Of a stretch of 64,000 nt of DNA, positions 29,104-63,641 are shown in pieces (positions within the stretch are counted from its first letter, which is position 1; each line of letters starts with the position of its first letter). Under the pieces are notes generated by a model. That model did no database searches, was not told the origin of the DNA, and saw only the letters and a list, made by a program, of their open reading frames with translations. The stretch covers positions 496,001-560,000 of the forward strand of contig NZ_CP082248.1 of assembly GCF_019879105.1 (NCBI RefSeq), in the 5' to 3' direction. This DNA comes from Natrinema sp. SYSU A 869. GTDB taxonomy: Archaea; Halobacteriota; Halobacteria; Halobacteriales; Natrialbaceae. The position numbers and the translations under genes are program-made.

Positions 29104-29930
29104 TCGACTCGTTGTCTCCCGAGCGAAGGTTCGGATTGCTGCAGCGACGCGGTCGGGAGCCGAATCGATGGCCACGTGCCCGACGCCGTCAAGTTCCACG
29201 AGTTGACTCTCGGGCAGGGTTTTGTCAAGGGTGAACGCGGCATCCCGCAGGTGTTCGGGACCGTGTTCGCCCGTTAGGAGAGCGTCGGAACACCGACGGT
29301 GTGGCCCTCGGCGAGTTCGTACTCCTCGACGGCGTAATTCTCCCGGATTACCGTTTCGAGAAGATCGAAGTTCACCTCGCTGGGCCAGAACGGCAGTTGC
29401 TCAGGCTCCGAGACACCGGCACCTTCCTGATAGAACAGCTTCATCGCTTCCTCCCGTCGACCGTCGTCAAGGTGGTCCTGCATTCGATCGGCCAGGTCGT
29501 CGTCACGGTGCTCGTCGACGAGTATCGCTGGTTCGTAGAGGACGAGTCGATCGACGGCAATCCGCTCGGCGGCCGCGAGCGCGACCAGACCGCCGTACGA
29601 GTGTCCAAACACCGTCATCTCGCCGTCGACGGCGTCGACGAGCGCACGGACGTCGCCGATCTCGTGCTTGAGGAGATATTCGTCGGCGTCGCCGCTCTCT
29701 CCCCGGCCCCGCCGGTCAGGAACGGTCGGCGTCGCCGCTCTCTCCCCGGCCCCGCCGGTCAGGAACGATAAGTGTGAAGTCGTCGGTGAGGTGCGGGCGG
29801 AGGGTATCCCAAGTCCGGCGGGTCCCCGATCCCCCGTGGAGGAGTATCAGCGGCGGACCCGATCCCTCTTGTTCGTAGGCAATCTCTGTTCCGTCTGTAG
29901 CGGTGACTGTTTGCGTGGGCTACGGCGCTG
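29104..29930 (-). pseudogene. Alpha/beta-hydrolase, degraded with a 43-bp tandem duplication
   Basis: The minus strand begins VTATDGTEIAYEQEGSGPPL and LILLHGGSGTRRTWDTLRPH (HGG oxyanion motif) and DRRGRGESGDAD. A 43-bp segment is duplicated in tandem (29682-29724 and 29725-29767), which shifts the frame. It resumes with MTVFGHSYGGLVALAAAERI (nucleophile elbow GHSYGG) to VPTLS, where another frame break occurs, and ends LDGVGHVAIDSAPDRVAAAI with the catalytic His. No start codon survives; the upstream end is close to the IS630 copy. Confidence 0.8.
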
Positions 29931-30011: not shown

Positions 30012-31071
30012 CTATAGTAACCGTTAGAACTTTCCGCCCAGGGAATGTTGCGTATACTAATGGACCATCTCGACGAAATCTCCGTCGAAGAACTCCAAGA
30101 TGCTCTCGACAACGTCGAGGGAAACAAGCCGACACAGCGGTTATTAGCAGCAATTGCGTACAAAAACGGTGTGACGCAGACCGAACTAGCAGAGTGGCAC
30201 GACACTGGCCGACGAACAATCTACAGTTGGCTCAAGCGACTCGACACCGACAAGTCGCTTGAGCAGGCCGTTACTGATGCTCACTGATCTGGGAGAAAAC
30301 GAAAGCTCTCGGAAAAAGAGCAACAAGAATTCGAAGAAACTATCCACGAACCACCAGAGAACATTGGAGTTGACGCGCCGGCGTGGACACCGGCGCTCGT
30401 CCAGCAGTATCTTGACGGGACCTACGATGTTGAATACTCAATCCCGAGCTGTCGGCGGTTGCTCAAAGAAGCGGGATTGAGCTACCAAAAACCACGCCGC
30501 ACAGCCGCCGAATCAGAGGCTGACGAGCAAGAAACGTTCCGCAAGGAACTCAAAAAAGCGGCGGGAGATGGACGCCACAGTAGTCTGTCTCGATCAAACC
30601 AAGAAATCCGTGCAAGTCGAGCCGCGTGCCGCGCGGAAACCACGCGGCACGCGGCCAGCAGTTGAACTCTCTGGACAACGCGATTGAACATGTTTACTCG
30701 GCGCAATCACCGAAGACGGTGATCGCTTTTTCGCTCGATTCGAAGAGTACGTGACCGCCGAACACGCGAAACATTTCATCCTCGCGTTATGCAAAGAGTT
30801 CGAAGATGATTTGATCGTTGTGTTAGATGGAGCGCCGTACTTTCAGGCGTCGGCCGTCACGGACCTAGCGGCCCGTGACGACCTCGCCTTCGTCACGTTA
30901 CCGGCGTACTCTCCTGAATTCAATCCAGTCGAAGAGTGCTGGCGACAGCTATAAACGGCTCTCAGCAATCGGTTTTTCGACTCACTTGGCGAGTTAACAA
31001 CGGCGATCGATACCGTACTTGATCAGCTCTCTGTACCAAAAGTGAGCAATTATTTCCAACTCCTACTATAG
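30012..31071 (+). mobile_element. IS630-family element, copy 1 (degenerate)
   Basis: Left end CTATAGTAACCGTTAGAAC and right end CTATAGTAGGAGTTGGAA (read inward on the minus strand) form imperfect inverted repeats; IS630 elements target TA. The element is about 1.06 kb, like copies 3 and 4. Its transposase is broken by three nonsense codons as well as the A-tract frame break shared by all copies. Confidence 0.9.
30060..31068 (+). pseudogene. IS630 transposase, copy 1
   Basis: MDHLDEISVEELQDALDNVE opens the HTH region; CGA to TGA at 30285-30287 interrupts it. The frame goes on to LKEAGLSYQKPRRTAAESEA, breaks at a run of six A (about 30552-30557), and resumes in the DDE half (MDATVVCLDQTKK ... 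VVLDGAPYFQASAVTDLAAR ... LPAYSPEFNPVEECWRQL), with two more stops (about 30686 and 30952). The palindrome at 30621-30655 has its 9-base loop inverted relative to copies 3 and 4, changing WFP to RKP. Confidence 0.85.
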
Positions 31072-31169
31072 TAACGACTTCGACGCTGGACTTTCTGTCA
31101 CGTATTGGGCACAATTTCGGAAGATGATTTTGATGCGTGCCTTTCTTCCGCGTCATATTGGATTGGCTT

Positions 31170-31835
31170 GTTGTGCGGGTCGTGTTTAGTTTGTAGCATT
31201 CTGCCAGACAGCGAAGGCTTGGAGCCACGATTCTGCGGTTGATGGTCTGACGTGACTAAAGAAGTTTCAGAACGAAGAGGTACGTCGTTTTTATCTCTCT
31301 AAAGATACGTTCGACAGTGTTTCGGTTTCCATGTTTTTCGTATCGAAACCGGAGCCCACGTCGGCGGAGTGCTGTCTGGAGATGCTGTGCTCCATCGACG
31401 AGAAACACAGCATTTTCGATGTCATGTTTTTCGGTAAGTTCTCGTAAAAAAGTTCGGTCAATGCGGTTGTAGTCGTTGTAAACAGCCGTATATGGCGAAT
31501 TCTGTTCGTTTCAGGATCGACTGCAGCGTACAGCCAATACTGGCGATTATCGATCCGAATCACAGTTTCGTCGATTGCAACGTGATTCGGATTCGTGCCA
31601 GTTGCTGGCTGTAGATCGGCTTTCTGTACCCAATCATGAACAGCCTTACGTGATCGCTCGACACCGAACTTCTCGAGTTCTCGAACGGTATTTGAAAGCG
31701 ATAATCCGACAAGGTGGAGTCGAATACCGAGCTCCATCAGCTGACGCGGTGTCCGTTCTCACTCCACAAAGCTCAAATCGATCCAGTCGCTACAACCGTT
31801 GAGGCGGTCGGTTTTTGCCATAGACCAGCACAAAA
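31170..31835 (-). mobile_element. IS6-family element relic with degraded transposase
   Basis: The minus strand starts MAKTDRLNGCSDWIDLSFVE, has an in-frame TGA, then RTPRQLMELGIRLHLVGLSL and the HTH and DDE segments (VERSRKAVHDWVQKADLQPA, HVAIDETVIRIDNRQYWLYA AVDPETN). A frameshift after TALTELF leads to a scrambled middle, and the C-terminus FFSHVRPSTAESWLQAFAVW is found in another frame up to 31186. Ends TTGTGCGGGTCGTG (31169...) and, inverted, TTGTGCTGGTCTATG (to about 31835) look like terminal repeats. Confidence 0.75.
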
Positions 31836-46131: not shown

Positions 46132-46230
46132 GTTTGCACTGTCTGCAATGGCGCTGTTCAGATATAGTCTGAAAAGCGAGGTGATCAGAATTCTAGGTGT
46201 CTATGCCAGAATTCAGCCGCCTCAACGGCG

Positions 46231-46443
46231 CTATAGTAACCGTTAGAACTTTTCACTCAGAGATTGTTGCTAAACGTAGTGGATCATCTCGACAAAATCT
46301 CTGTCGAGGAATTGCAAGATTACCTCGACAACGTGGAGGGAAAGAAGCCGATGCAACGACTCTTAGCGGCAATAGCGTACAAAAACGGCGTCACGTAGAC
46401 TGAGTTATCTGAGTGGTACGACGTTCAGCGACGAACGATTGAT
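46231..46443 (+). mobile_element. IS630-family element, left-end remnant (copy 2)
   Basis: Begins with CTATAGTAACCGTTAGAAC and follows the other copies through the HTH start (DHLDKISVEELQDYLDNVEG; stop codons inside) up to about 46443, where similarity ends. Right half missing. Confidence 0.9.
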
Positions 46444-46904: not shown

Positions 46905-47123
46905 GACAGTACGAAAAAGATAGTGCTGGAGCACAAGGGCGACCTGTGCGACACCCACGTCGTTCAAGTCAACCCGCGTGACACGACCAAAGAGTGTGCA
47001 AAGTGTGGTGGGAGACAGACAAACCGTTATGGGTACGGGAACACAGTTGCCCGTCGTGTGGGTTTGAGGCGGGCAGGGATGCGAATGCATCGTACAATGT
47101 TCTTTCTCACGGTCTTCAACAGC
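46905..47123 (+). pseudogene. TnpB (IS200/IS605-type) C-terminal fragment interrupted by IS630
   Basis: Reads KIVLEHKGDLCDTHVVQVNP RDTTKECAKCG, then one base out ETDKPLWVREHSCPSCGFEA GRDANASYNVLSHGLQQ. This is the zinc-finger and final RuvC-like segment of TnpB (CxxC...CxxC, then RD.NA). The sequence stops exactly at the IS630 end (47124). Confidence 0.8.
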
Positions 47124-47170
47124 TATAGTAACCGTTAGAATTTTTCGCCCGTAGATTGTTACTGTAGACA

Positions 47171-47695
47171 ATGGACAATCTCGACGAGATTTCCGTTGAA
47201 GAACTCCAAGACGCCCTTGACAAGGTTGAGGGAAACAAGCCGACACAACGGTTGTTAGCGGCGATTGAGTACAAGAACGGCGTGACACAGACCGAACTTG
47301 CAGAGTGGCACGACACTGGTCGAAGGACGATCTACAGTTGGCTCATGCGACTCGATACGGACGAACCGCTTGAGCAAGCCGTCTCTGATGCTCACCGATC
47401 CGGGAGAAAACGAAAGCTCTCAGAAACACAGCAAGAAGAGTTTGAACAAACCGTTCACGAACCTCCCGAGGAAGTCGGGATCGACGCGCCGGCATGGACG
47501 CCGGCGCTCGTCCAGGAGTTTCTTGAAGAAACCTACGGCGTCGAGTACTCCTATCCGAGTTGCCGGCGGTTGCTCAAAGAAGCTGGATTGAGTTACCAAA
47601 AACCGCGCCGCACAGCCGCCGAAGCCGAGGAATCCGACACAGAAGAGTTCCGTGACGAACTCAAAAAAAGCGAGCGGAGATGGACGCCACAGTAG
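47171..47695 (+). CDS. IS630 transposase, HTH half (ORF A)
   Basis: A 174-residue ORF: HTH region (GVTQTELAEWHDTGRRTIYS), linker (SGRKRKLSETQQEEFEQTVH) and DNA-binding helix bundle (LKEAGLSYQKPRRTAAEAEE). It ends shortly after a run of seven A (47663-47669). A -1 slip there would fuse it to ORF B (KKKRAEMDATV). Confidence 0.85.
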   Translation: MDNLDEISVEELQDALDKVEGNKPTQRLLAAIEYKNGVTQTELAEWHDTGRRTIYSWLMRLDTDEPLEQAVSDAHRSGRKRKLSETQQEEFEQTVHEPPEEVGIDAPAWTPALVQEFLEETYGVEYSYPSCRRLLKEAGLSYQKPRRTAAEAEESDTEEFRDELKKSERRWTPQ

Positions 47696-48171
47696 TCTGC
47701 ATCGATCAGACCAAGAAATCCGTCCAGGTTGAGCCGCGTGCCGCGTGGTTTCCGCGCGGCACGCGGCCGAGCGTCGAACTTTCTGGCCAACACGACTGGA
47801 CGTGTCTGCTCGGCGCGATCACCGAAGACGGCGAGTGCTTCTTCTCACGATTCACCGAGTACGTCACTGCCGATCACGCGAAACATTTCATTCTCGCGTT
47901 ATGCAAAGAATTCGAAGAAGATCTAATCATCGTGCTCGATGGAGCGCCGTATTTCCAGGCATCGGCCGTCACGGACCTGGCGGCCCGTGACGACCTCGCC
48001 TTCGTCACGTTACCGGCGTACTCTCCTGAACTCAACCCGGTCGAAGAGTGCTGGCGACAGCTCCAAACGGCTCTCAGCAATCGGTTTTTTGACTCACTTG
48101 GCGAGTTAACAACGGCGATCGATACCGCACTTAATCAGCTCTCTGTACCAAAGATGAGCAGTTATTTCTAA
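47680..48171 (+). CDS. IS630 transposase, DDE catalytic half (ORF B)
   Basis: A 163-residue ORF: the first catalytic Asp is in VVCIDQTKK, the second in VVLDGAPYFQASAV-like IIVLDGAPYFQ, and the Glu in YSPELNPVEECWRQL (D-D-E triad of IS630/Tc1). Overlaps ORF A by 16 bases. Contains the 13-bp-arm palindrome at 47733-47767. Confidence 0.88.
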   Translation: MDATVVCIDQTKKSVQVEPRAAWFPRGTRPSVELSGQHDWTCLLGAITEDGECFFSRFTEYVTADHAKHFILALCKEFEEDLIIVLDGAPYFQASAVTDLAARDDLAFVTLPAYSPELNPVEECWRQLQTALSNRFFDSLGELTTAIDTALNQLSVPKMSSYF

Positions 48172-48182
48172 CTCCTACTATA

Positions 48183-48815
48183 GGTGAACCCCACTACAGC
48201 CGAGAGTTCCAGCATCACCTCGCAATCCTCAAGCGGGACGGCTACCTAGAGGAGGACGACGGGACGCTCCACATCGCGATCGACATCGACGGCGGCGACG
48301 AGGAGTTTCTAGCCGGCGACGTCACGGCCACGATCCGATCGGCCCGCCAAGCGGACCTCTCGGGGATCATCGGTGCGATCCGCCAGGTTGTCGAAGAGAT
48401 GACGTACATCGTCGCAGAGGGCGTCGCGGACGAACTCGATCACGAGAACGTGCTGTTCCGGCACAACGAGATGGAGTCGCGGATGTTCTTCGTCGCGACC
48501 GTCGACGACGAGGTCGTCGGCTGGGCGCACCTCCGGGTCCCAAACCTCGAGAAGCTGAACCACACCGCAGAACTGACGATCGGCGTCCTCGAGGAGTACC
48601 GCGGGAACGGAATCGGCAGCCAGTTACTCGAACTCTCCCTCGAGTGGGCCCGCGCGAACGAGCGCGAGAAGGTGTATCAAAGCGTCCCCTCGACCAACGA
48701 GGCGGCGATCGAGTTCTTCGAATCGCGCGGGTGGGCGGTCGAAGCGATCAGGGAGAACCACTACCGGCTCGACGATGAGTATATCGATGAAGTGATGATG
48801 GCAATACGGCTGTAG
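48183..48815 (+). pseudogene. GNAT acetyltransferase, 5' end removed by IS630
   Basis: The frame is open from the IS630 end: HYSREFQHHLAILKRDGYLE, then ATIRSARQADLSGIIGAIRQ and the GNAT core HTAELTIGVLEEYRGNGIGS QLLELSLEWAR with the R/Q-x-x-G-x-G/A acetyl-CoA loop (YRGNGIG). The C-terminus (IEFFESRGWAVEAIRENHYR) is complete. The original start is missing; an internal ATG at 48399 would remove the first strands of the domain. It may still make a partial product. Confidence 0.8.
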
Positions 48816-62576: not shown

Positions 62577-62596
62577 GAAGAGTACTATAGTAGGAG

Positions 62597-63088
62597 TTAG
62601 AAATAACTGCTCATTTTAGGAATAGAGAGTTGATCAAGAGCGGTATCGATCGCTGTTGTTAGCTCAGAAAGTGAGTCGAAGAATCGGTTGCTAAGAGCTG
62701 ATTGCAGCTGTCTCCAGCACTCTTCGACTGGATTAAGTTCCGGTGAATACGCTGGTAACGTGACGAAGGCGAGGTCGTCACGGGCCGCCAGGTCCGTGAC
62801 GGCCGACGCCTGGAAATACGGCGCTCCATCCAACACGACGATCAAGTTATCTTCGAACTCTTTGCATAATGCGAGAATGAAATGTTTCGCATGTTCGGCG
62901 GTCACGTACTCTTCGAACCGAGAGAAAAAACGATCACCGTCCTCGGTGATCGCGCCCAAGAGACATGTCCAGTCGCGTTGCCCGGACAATTCGACGGCCG
63001 GCCGCGTGCCGCGCGGAAACCACGCGGCACGCGGCTCAACTTGCACGGATTTCTTGGTTTGATCGATACAGACTACTGTGGCGTCCAT
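62597..63088 (-). CDS. IS630 transposase, DDE catalytic half (ORF B)
   Basis: A 163-residue ORF with the triad in VVCIDQTKK, VVLDGAPYFQASAV and YSPELNPVEECWRQL, and SKAI-like palindromic coding region (EPRAAWFPRGTRPAV). Intact internally; overlaps ORF A by 53 bases. Confidence 0.86.
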   Translation of the reverse strand: MDATVVCIDQTKKSVQVEPRAAWFPRGTRPAVELSGQRDWTCLLGAITEDGDRFFSRFEEYVTAEHAKHFILALCKEFEDNLIVVLDGAPYFQASAVTDLAARDDLAFVTLPAYSPELNPVEECWRQLQSALSNRFFDSLSELTTAIDTALDQLSIPKMSSYF

Positions 63089-63593
63089 CTCCCGCCGCTT
63101 TTTTGAGTTCTTCGTGGAACGTCTCTTGTTCGTCAGCCTCAGCTTCAGCGGCTGTACGGCGTGGTTTTTGATAGCTCAATCTCGCTTCTTTGAGCAACCG
63201 CCGGCAACTCGGGATTGAGTAATCAACATCGTAGGTCTCGTCGAGATACTGCTGGACGAGCGCCGGCGTCCACGCCGGCGCGTTAACCCCAACTTCTTCG
63301 GGTGAGTCGTGGACAGCTTCTTCGAATTCTTGTTGCTCTTTTTCTGAGAGCTTTCGCTTTCTCCCAGATCGATGATCGTCAGTTACAGCCTGCTCAAGCG
63401 ACTCGTCGGTGTCGAGTCGCTTGAGCCAGCTATAGATCGTGCGTCGCTGAACGTCGTACCACTCGGCTAGTTCAGTCTGTGTAACGCTGTTTTTGTACGC
63501 TATTGCCGCTAAGAGCCGTTGTGTCGGCTTCTTTCCCTCCACGTTGAGAGCATCTTGCAATTCCTCGACAGAGATTTCGTCGAGATGATCCAC
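63036..63593 (-). CDS. IS630 transposase, HTH half (ORF A)
   Basis: A 185-residue ORF starting MDHLDEISVEELQDALNVEG with the HTH (SVTQTELAEWYDVQRRTIYS) and linker intact. It crosses the A-tract (63099-63104 on the plus strand) in frame zero and ends 20 codons later in nonhomologous reading of ORF B DNA (GDGRHSSLYRSNQEIRAS). Reaching the ORF B frame needs a +1 or -2 shift. Confidence 0.82.
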   Translation of the reverse strand: MDHLDEISVEELQDALNVEGKKPTQRLLAAIAYKNSVTQTELAEWYDVQRRTIYSWLKRLDTDESLEQAVTDDHRSGRKRKLSEKEQQEFEEAVHDSPEEVGVNAPAWTPALVQQYLDETYDVDYSIPSCRRLLKEARLSYQKPRRTAAEAEADEQETFHEELKKAAGDGRHSSLYRSNQEIRAS

Positions 63594-63641
63594 TACCTTC
63601 AGAAATCATCTCTGAGTAGAAAGTTTTAACGGTTACTATAG

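Follow-up and report, generated by a model that had tools for sequence, protein, structure and literature searches.

Small inversions at chloroplast hairpins were reportedly described by Kelchner and Wendel in 1996 and by Kim and Lee in 2005. According to the available part of one account of chloroplast genomes (PMC6824564), the orientation of hairpin loops flips repeatedly on the tree while the stem remains constant. In yeast coding genes the spacers of perfect inverted repeats undergo recurrent, reversible inversion that leaves the arms unchanged, and the part of that report at hand explains the change by intermolecular template switching (PMC8604942). Quasipalindrome template-switch mutations, like template switching that creates or repairs hairpins, involve a strand switch between the arms (PMC8794818, in its available part). 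We report here that in a haloarchaeal insertion sequence the spacers of inverted repeats very probably undergo recurrent inversion by replication template switching, with the inversions lost from live elements by selection and retained in dead ones.

The locus lies in a stretch of 64,000 nucleotides (called the window below; contig NZ_CP082248.1, positions 496,001 to 560,000) of Natrinema sp. SYSU A 869, whose genome assembly comprises 5.67 Mb in 3 contigs. The window contains three near-full copies of an IS630 element and one fragment. Copy A (30012-31071, + strand) has in-frame stops in both ORFs and is a decayed pseudogene, copy B (about 47123-48184, + strand) is intact, and copy C (62585-63611, - strand) is the third; sequence identity to copy B is 85% for copy A and 82% for copy C. 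Copies A and B start with CTATAGTA and end with TACTATAG (ends read by eye), candidates for the short terminal inverted repeats at a TA target that mark the IS630 family. In copy B, ORF A (47171-47695, + strand, 174 aa) is the helix-turn-helix part of the transposase (HTH_33; IS630 profile), and ORF B (47680-48171, + strand, 163 aa), which lies in the -1 frame relative to ORF A and overlaps it, is the DDE catalytic part (DDE_3; IS630 profile). Both ORFs score above the NCBIfam NF033545 cut-off and ORF B matches Pfam DDE_3 with E=9e-38; by these profiles the element is assigned to the IS630 family, with a transposase predicted to carry a DDE domain. An A-run beside the overlap of the two ORFs (window 47650-47700) looks like a candidate frameshift site, and one-base indels at reference position 513, near this overlap, recur among the copies; IS630 is named among the families that use frameshifting in the available part of PMC5009743. 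Two other features were seen close to the copies. A truncated 5' IS630 fragment at 46227-46439, evidently the "copy 2" of an earlier note on this DNA, shares the orientation of copy B, lies 892 bp ahead of it and is without the hairpin. At window positions 29682-29767, some hundreds of bases ahead of copy A, a 43-bp unit (GTCGGCGTCGCC...CAGGAACG) is perfectly duplicated in tandem.

The palindrome considered here, HP1, is a 35-mer of the form GCCGCGTGCCGCG-N9-CGCGGCACGCGGC that has three exact occurrences in the window, with no chance match expected (100 shuffles). In copy B (47733-47767, + strand) it carries the normal loop TGGTTTCCG, which codes for WFP, and in copy C (63001-63035, - strand) the sense-strand loop is likewise TGGTTTCCG, the normal orientation. 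In copy A (30621-30655, + strand) the 13-bp arms enclose the inverted loop CGGAAACCA, and RKP replaces WFP. All three copies have identical arms, and the copy A loop is the exact reverse complement of the normal one, so that the earlier note's claim of a loop inverted in copy A relative to B and C between unchanged arms is borne out by the exact positions. The other hairpins of copy A, all on the + strand, are in the normal orientation: HP2 (30230-30264) has 14-bp arms with one mismatch and the 7-nt loop ACACCGA, HP4 (30703-30726) has 10-bp arms with one mismatch and the loop AAGA, and HP3 (30855-30880) has 8-bp arms and the loop ACCTAGCGGC. Genome-wide there are 19 near-full copies, 17 of them normal and two inverted at HP1; both inverted copies are broken, the second one being L013 at C2:384472-385497.

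Further copies were collected in three samples as follows: For sample 1, 391 genomes of the class were scanned with a sense-strand pattern that allows the loop in both orientations; 64 of them matched, with at least eight inverted places among the matches listed. Sample 2 came from 125 genomes of the family, searched with a tolerance of up to 3 mismatches, and contributed more inverted copies. Sample 3 relied on DNA similarity alone: 125 genomes were searched with a 301-base stretch that surrounds the hairpin, and 80 new places were read among the matches listed, four of which are inverted at HP1; eight partial matches, seven of them short of HP1, were omitted. Three of the 141 extracted pieces were dropped (a second copy in one locus, a contig-end fragment and the second piece of one element), and five of the 80 later copies were too damaged for HP1 scoring and were left out. 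An exact scan of viral contigs gave no matches, and an exact scan of genome contigs gave two, both already in the sample, and nothing further. This survey of both loop orientations in other copies of the IS, which had been suggested in the earlier note, found HP1 inverted in 17 of 218 haloarchaeal copies among the matches listed, the 17 coming from 13 genomes. The flip is therefore not a single occurrence, as the earlier note had allowed that it might be, and three other palindromes of the gene are inverted as well (below). On a tree of 213 copies for which every hairpin was masked, the most parsimonious history requires 14 changes at HP1, 6 at HP2, 4 at HP3 and 6 at HP4; by this reconstruction the inversions are recurrent, with at least 14 separate events at HP1, and the HP1 flip rate is about 0.8 per substitution per site.

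The inverted HP1 loops are CGGAAACCA, AGGAAACCA, TGGAAACCA, GGGAAACCA, CGGGAACCA, CGAAAACCA and CGGAAATCA. Each of the first five is exactly the reverse complement of a normal loop found in another copy (TGGTTTCCG, -T, -A, -C and TGGTTCCCG), and TGGAAACCA can alternatively be read as a flip plus correction of the T-G mismatch at the base of the loop. If each copy had simply flipped its own loop, the variable third base of the loop should match near relatives; it agrees with the nearest relative in only 10 of the 17 inverted copies (p=0.05), a result of little weight that, as far as it goes, counts against such an own-loop flip.

Is the change peculiar to HP1? A blind scan paired each of the 218 copies with the nearest relative whose HP1 is not inverted and recorded ungapped segments of 7-35 nt whose reverse complement fits better by at least 5 bases (a threshold gain of 6 is too strict, as the HP1 inversion gains 5). 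It gave 15 hits, nine of them at HP1, two at HP2 (reference 191-225) and three at HP3 (reference 817-842); the remaining hit is a seven-base segment near the element end of copy L216, at no hairpin. Control scans of the same 218 copies, reverse-only and complement-only, gave no hits. Targeted counts of inversions were 17 at HP1, 6 at HP2, 5 at HP3 and 6 clear cases at HP4 (six of seven calls kept; L231, with ACCT, was excluded as ambiguous), and the targeted count at HP5, which has 8-bp arms, was zero. The commonest long perfect inverted repeats of the intact copies are the HP1-HP3 sites, together with HP4 (10-bp arms and a 4-nt loop) and HP5. All five hairpin sequences, tested as single-stranded DNA, fold better than shuffles (z -3.0 to -7.4), and the arm sequences of the four flipping palindromes are unrelated to one another. 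A general process thus acts on perfect inverted repeats, and no special property of the HP1 sequence is needed.

A decayed copy of another, putatively IS6-like IS occupies window positions 31130-31830; of 29 genomes of the genus, 27 have matches to it. Among 48 copies of this IS there is one flip, in L280, with a 13-nt spacer and 11-bp arms, and control scans of the 48 copies gave no hits; L280 is decayed, its longest open frame being 122 aa versus 216 in its relatives.

What the earlier note lacks is the main biological point, namely that the flips sit solely in broken copies. A copy was scored as broken if it had an in-frame stop, an uncompensated frameshift or at least 60 missing bases outside the ORF junction; junction indels at reference 485-531 were ignored in this scoring because ORF A and ORF B overlap there. 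The flips themselves preserve length and create no stop (read in frame by hand), so the call "broken" is not caused by the flip. Some hairpin is inverted in 31 of 119 broken copies versus none of 94 intact copies (p=2e-9); flipped copies total 32, the other one, L251, being inverted at HP3 and unscorable at HP1, and it falls outside this table. After clustering at 92% identity the figures are 30/108 broken versus 0/41 intact (p=1.7e-5). For HP1 alone they are 17/119 versus 0/94 (p=3e-5), and in the orientation-blind samples, a table that omits 10 copies from the inverted-pattern or plasmid search (3 of these inverted), 14/111 versus 0/92 (p=1.4e-4).

Part of this contrast is age, since the broken copies are older than the intact ones. 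Age by itself is not a full explanation: the branches leading to intact copies sum to 4.8 substitutions per site, those of broken copies to 16.9, and about 8.5 flips at the four hairpins are expected on the live branches under neutrality and none is observed, an expectation that is rough in that hairpins are not perfect in every copy and live branches are shortened by selection. With HP1 alone 4.0 flips are expected on the live branches, and the age-corrected probability of seeing none is 0.019. We infer that loss of transposase function is the reason why intact copies lack flips.

The mechanism that we propose would work as follows: The nine-nucleotide segment separates the arms of a perfect inverted repeat, as its spacer, within the transposase gene of the haloarchaeal IS630 element. 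A growing strand, while within one arm, would jump to the arm of identical sequence on the opposite strand, copy the spacer in reverse and switch back within the second arm, which would leave an inverted spacer between arms that seem unaltered. Such a process would recur at all four strong coding hairpins, HP1-HP4. In a working element the flip would swap conserved residues (Trp-Phe to Arg-Lys in the DDE domain in the case of HP1) and selection would remove it, whereas in an already dead copy, such as copy A, it would be neutral and persist. The recurrence of the flips and their confinement to perfect inverted repeats and to broken copies can be read directly from the aligned sequences.

Template switching between arms should invert the spacer of any perfect inverted repeat and at times also copy past the arm or make the arms equal. 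One copy, L185, bears on the manner of the switch. Its loop is inverted and, in addition, AGGTCGAGC on the left is replaced by CGCTCGGT. The left flank of L185, CGCTCGG, is over seven bases the reverse complement of the right flank of its closest relative, L070, to which it is nearly identical around the altered segment; against the present right flank of L185 itself six bases match, and there is one further change there. A second copy of the flank is expected from template switching and could not come from a conservative flip; in principle L185 could alternatively represent three substitutions and a deletion. In broken copies there are 31 cells in which both bases of an arm pair were replaced and again form a Watson-Crick pair (a raw count that includes kinship and transition bias), in line with arm equalisation. 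Other rearrangements were seen at these hairpins: L204 (1-1651) has a 17-bp tandem duplication of the HP1 left arm, and L215 and L251 have deletions within the hairpin. From this duplication and these deletions, the HP1 site is generally unstable.

The earlier note had attributed the flip to cruciform extrusion or template switching in vivo, and this is supported, with template switching favoured over a simple cruciform flip because unrelated palindromes flip, their loops are only 4-10 nt long and L185 has a non-conservative copy that reaches beyond the arm. A conservative flip, in which the palindrome extrudes as a cruciform, or a resolvase or recombinase acts, and the segment is rejoined reversed, would likewise leave the arms unchanged, as they are in most cases, and the hairpins are stable as single strands. 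We nevertheless consider it unlikely, as the four flipping palindromes share no sequence and so offer no common recognition site, loops of 4-10 nt leave the arms no room for double-stranded synapsis, and L185 acquired a copy of its flank. A programmed DNA inversion switch is disfavoured as well, since the arms of the four flipping palindromes are unrelated in sequence and so offer no shared recombination sites, and none of the 94 intact copies is flipped. Ectopic gene conversion, with two element copies aligned in reverse register via the palindrome, might be suspected, given that many host genomes hold several copies and that the third base of the loop fits the nearest relative in just 10 of 17 cases, but the reverse-register homology is confined to arms of 8-14 bp and the same flips are found at four palindromes of unrelated sequence, which makes it extremely improbable. 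Hairpins are hard for polymerases and can yield artefacts, so an assembly or consensus error, which the earlier note had kept in view, is a natural suspicion; it is rejected here and is almost certainly wrong, since the 17 HP1 inversions come from 13 separately assembled genomes and every flipped copy sits in its own decayed context, never in an intact copy. We infer from these sequence comparisons that replication template switching, rather than another process, probably makes the flip.

Synonymous sites in the arms of HP1 and HP3 vary little in the intact copies, where third-position divergence from the consensus is 0.034 in the HP1 arms, 0.020 in the HP3 arms and 0.255 elsewhere, and where 8-codon windows at HP1 and HP3 rank with the least variable in codon usage along the gene; in the broken copies of sample 3 the divergence is 0.088 in the HP1 arms and 0.113 in the HP3 arms. 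A block of ORF A at about reference 327-363 (window about 47477-47513), which contains none of the four hairpins, likewise has very low codon variation in intact copies. The hairpins may have a function, but the lack of compensatory arm changes at HP1 and HP3 in intact copies gives a selected pairing no support. We regard as improbable the proposal that the palindromes of live copies are selected as DNA or RNA structures (for example, structures limiting transposase expression) and that flipping doubles as reversible self-inactivation; if true, flipping would be a built-in self-inactivation route that limits the activity of the element. Less probable still is a heritable on/off switch, in which perfect palindromes would be kept so that loop inversion can reversibly inactivate the transposase. 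The strong conservation of synonymous sites in the HP1 and HP3 arms of intact copies speaks for such a switch, but none of the 94 intact copies is inverted, compensatory arm changes were absent at HP1 and HP3 in the intact copies, and a low-variation window (reference 327-357) lies outside the four hairpins.

If the flips are made by replication template switching, dead transposon copies would be a natural, nearly selection-free archive of archaeal template-switch mutations, with live copies as the selected control, and this archive offers the same hairpins over many copies and many species. At the HP1 rate given above, a simultaneous change of five bases occurs about as often as a given site undergoes a point mutation. 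Clusters of differences made by flips may be mistaken for several substitutions or for adaptive change, and they would reveal which strand-switching errors haloarchaea make.

The annotated relative of the element is ISNpe3 (IS630-like, plasmid pNATPE01 of Natrinema pellirubrum), which has the same palindrome with the normal loop and, unlike copy A, is intact and not inverted. Among the papers listed from the open-licence literature, we found no title or abstract opening that describes such flips for archaea or insertion sequences. The yeast case, in the part of PMC8604942 at hand, is alike in that a perfect inverted repeat in a coding gene has its spacer inverted between unchanged arms; it differs in that the change there is 2-5 bp in live genes, whereas the IS630 loops are 4-10 nt long, archaeal and flipped in broken copies only. 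The chloroplast flips, as far as the available part of PMC6824564 describes them, are mostly in non-coding plastid DNA, and the IS630 flips affect hairpins within the coding sequence of a mobile element. The usual outcome of quasipalindrome mutations, to judge from the part of PMC8794818 at hand, is that the arms become equal, whereas the main product in IS630 is an inverted spacer; L185, which lengthens an arm by copying the other flank, resembles them. The class of mutation is already known, and what appears to be new is its setting in an archaeal IS, the presence of four such hairpins in one mobile gene and the contrast between live and dead copies.
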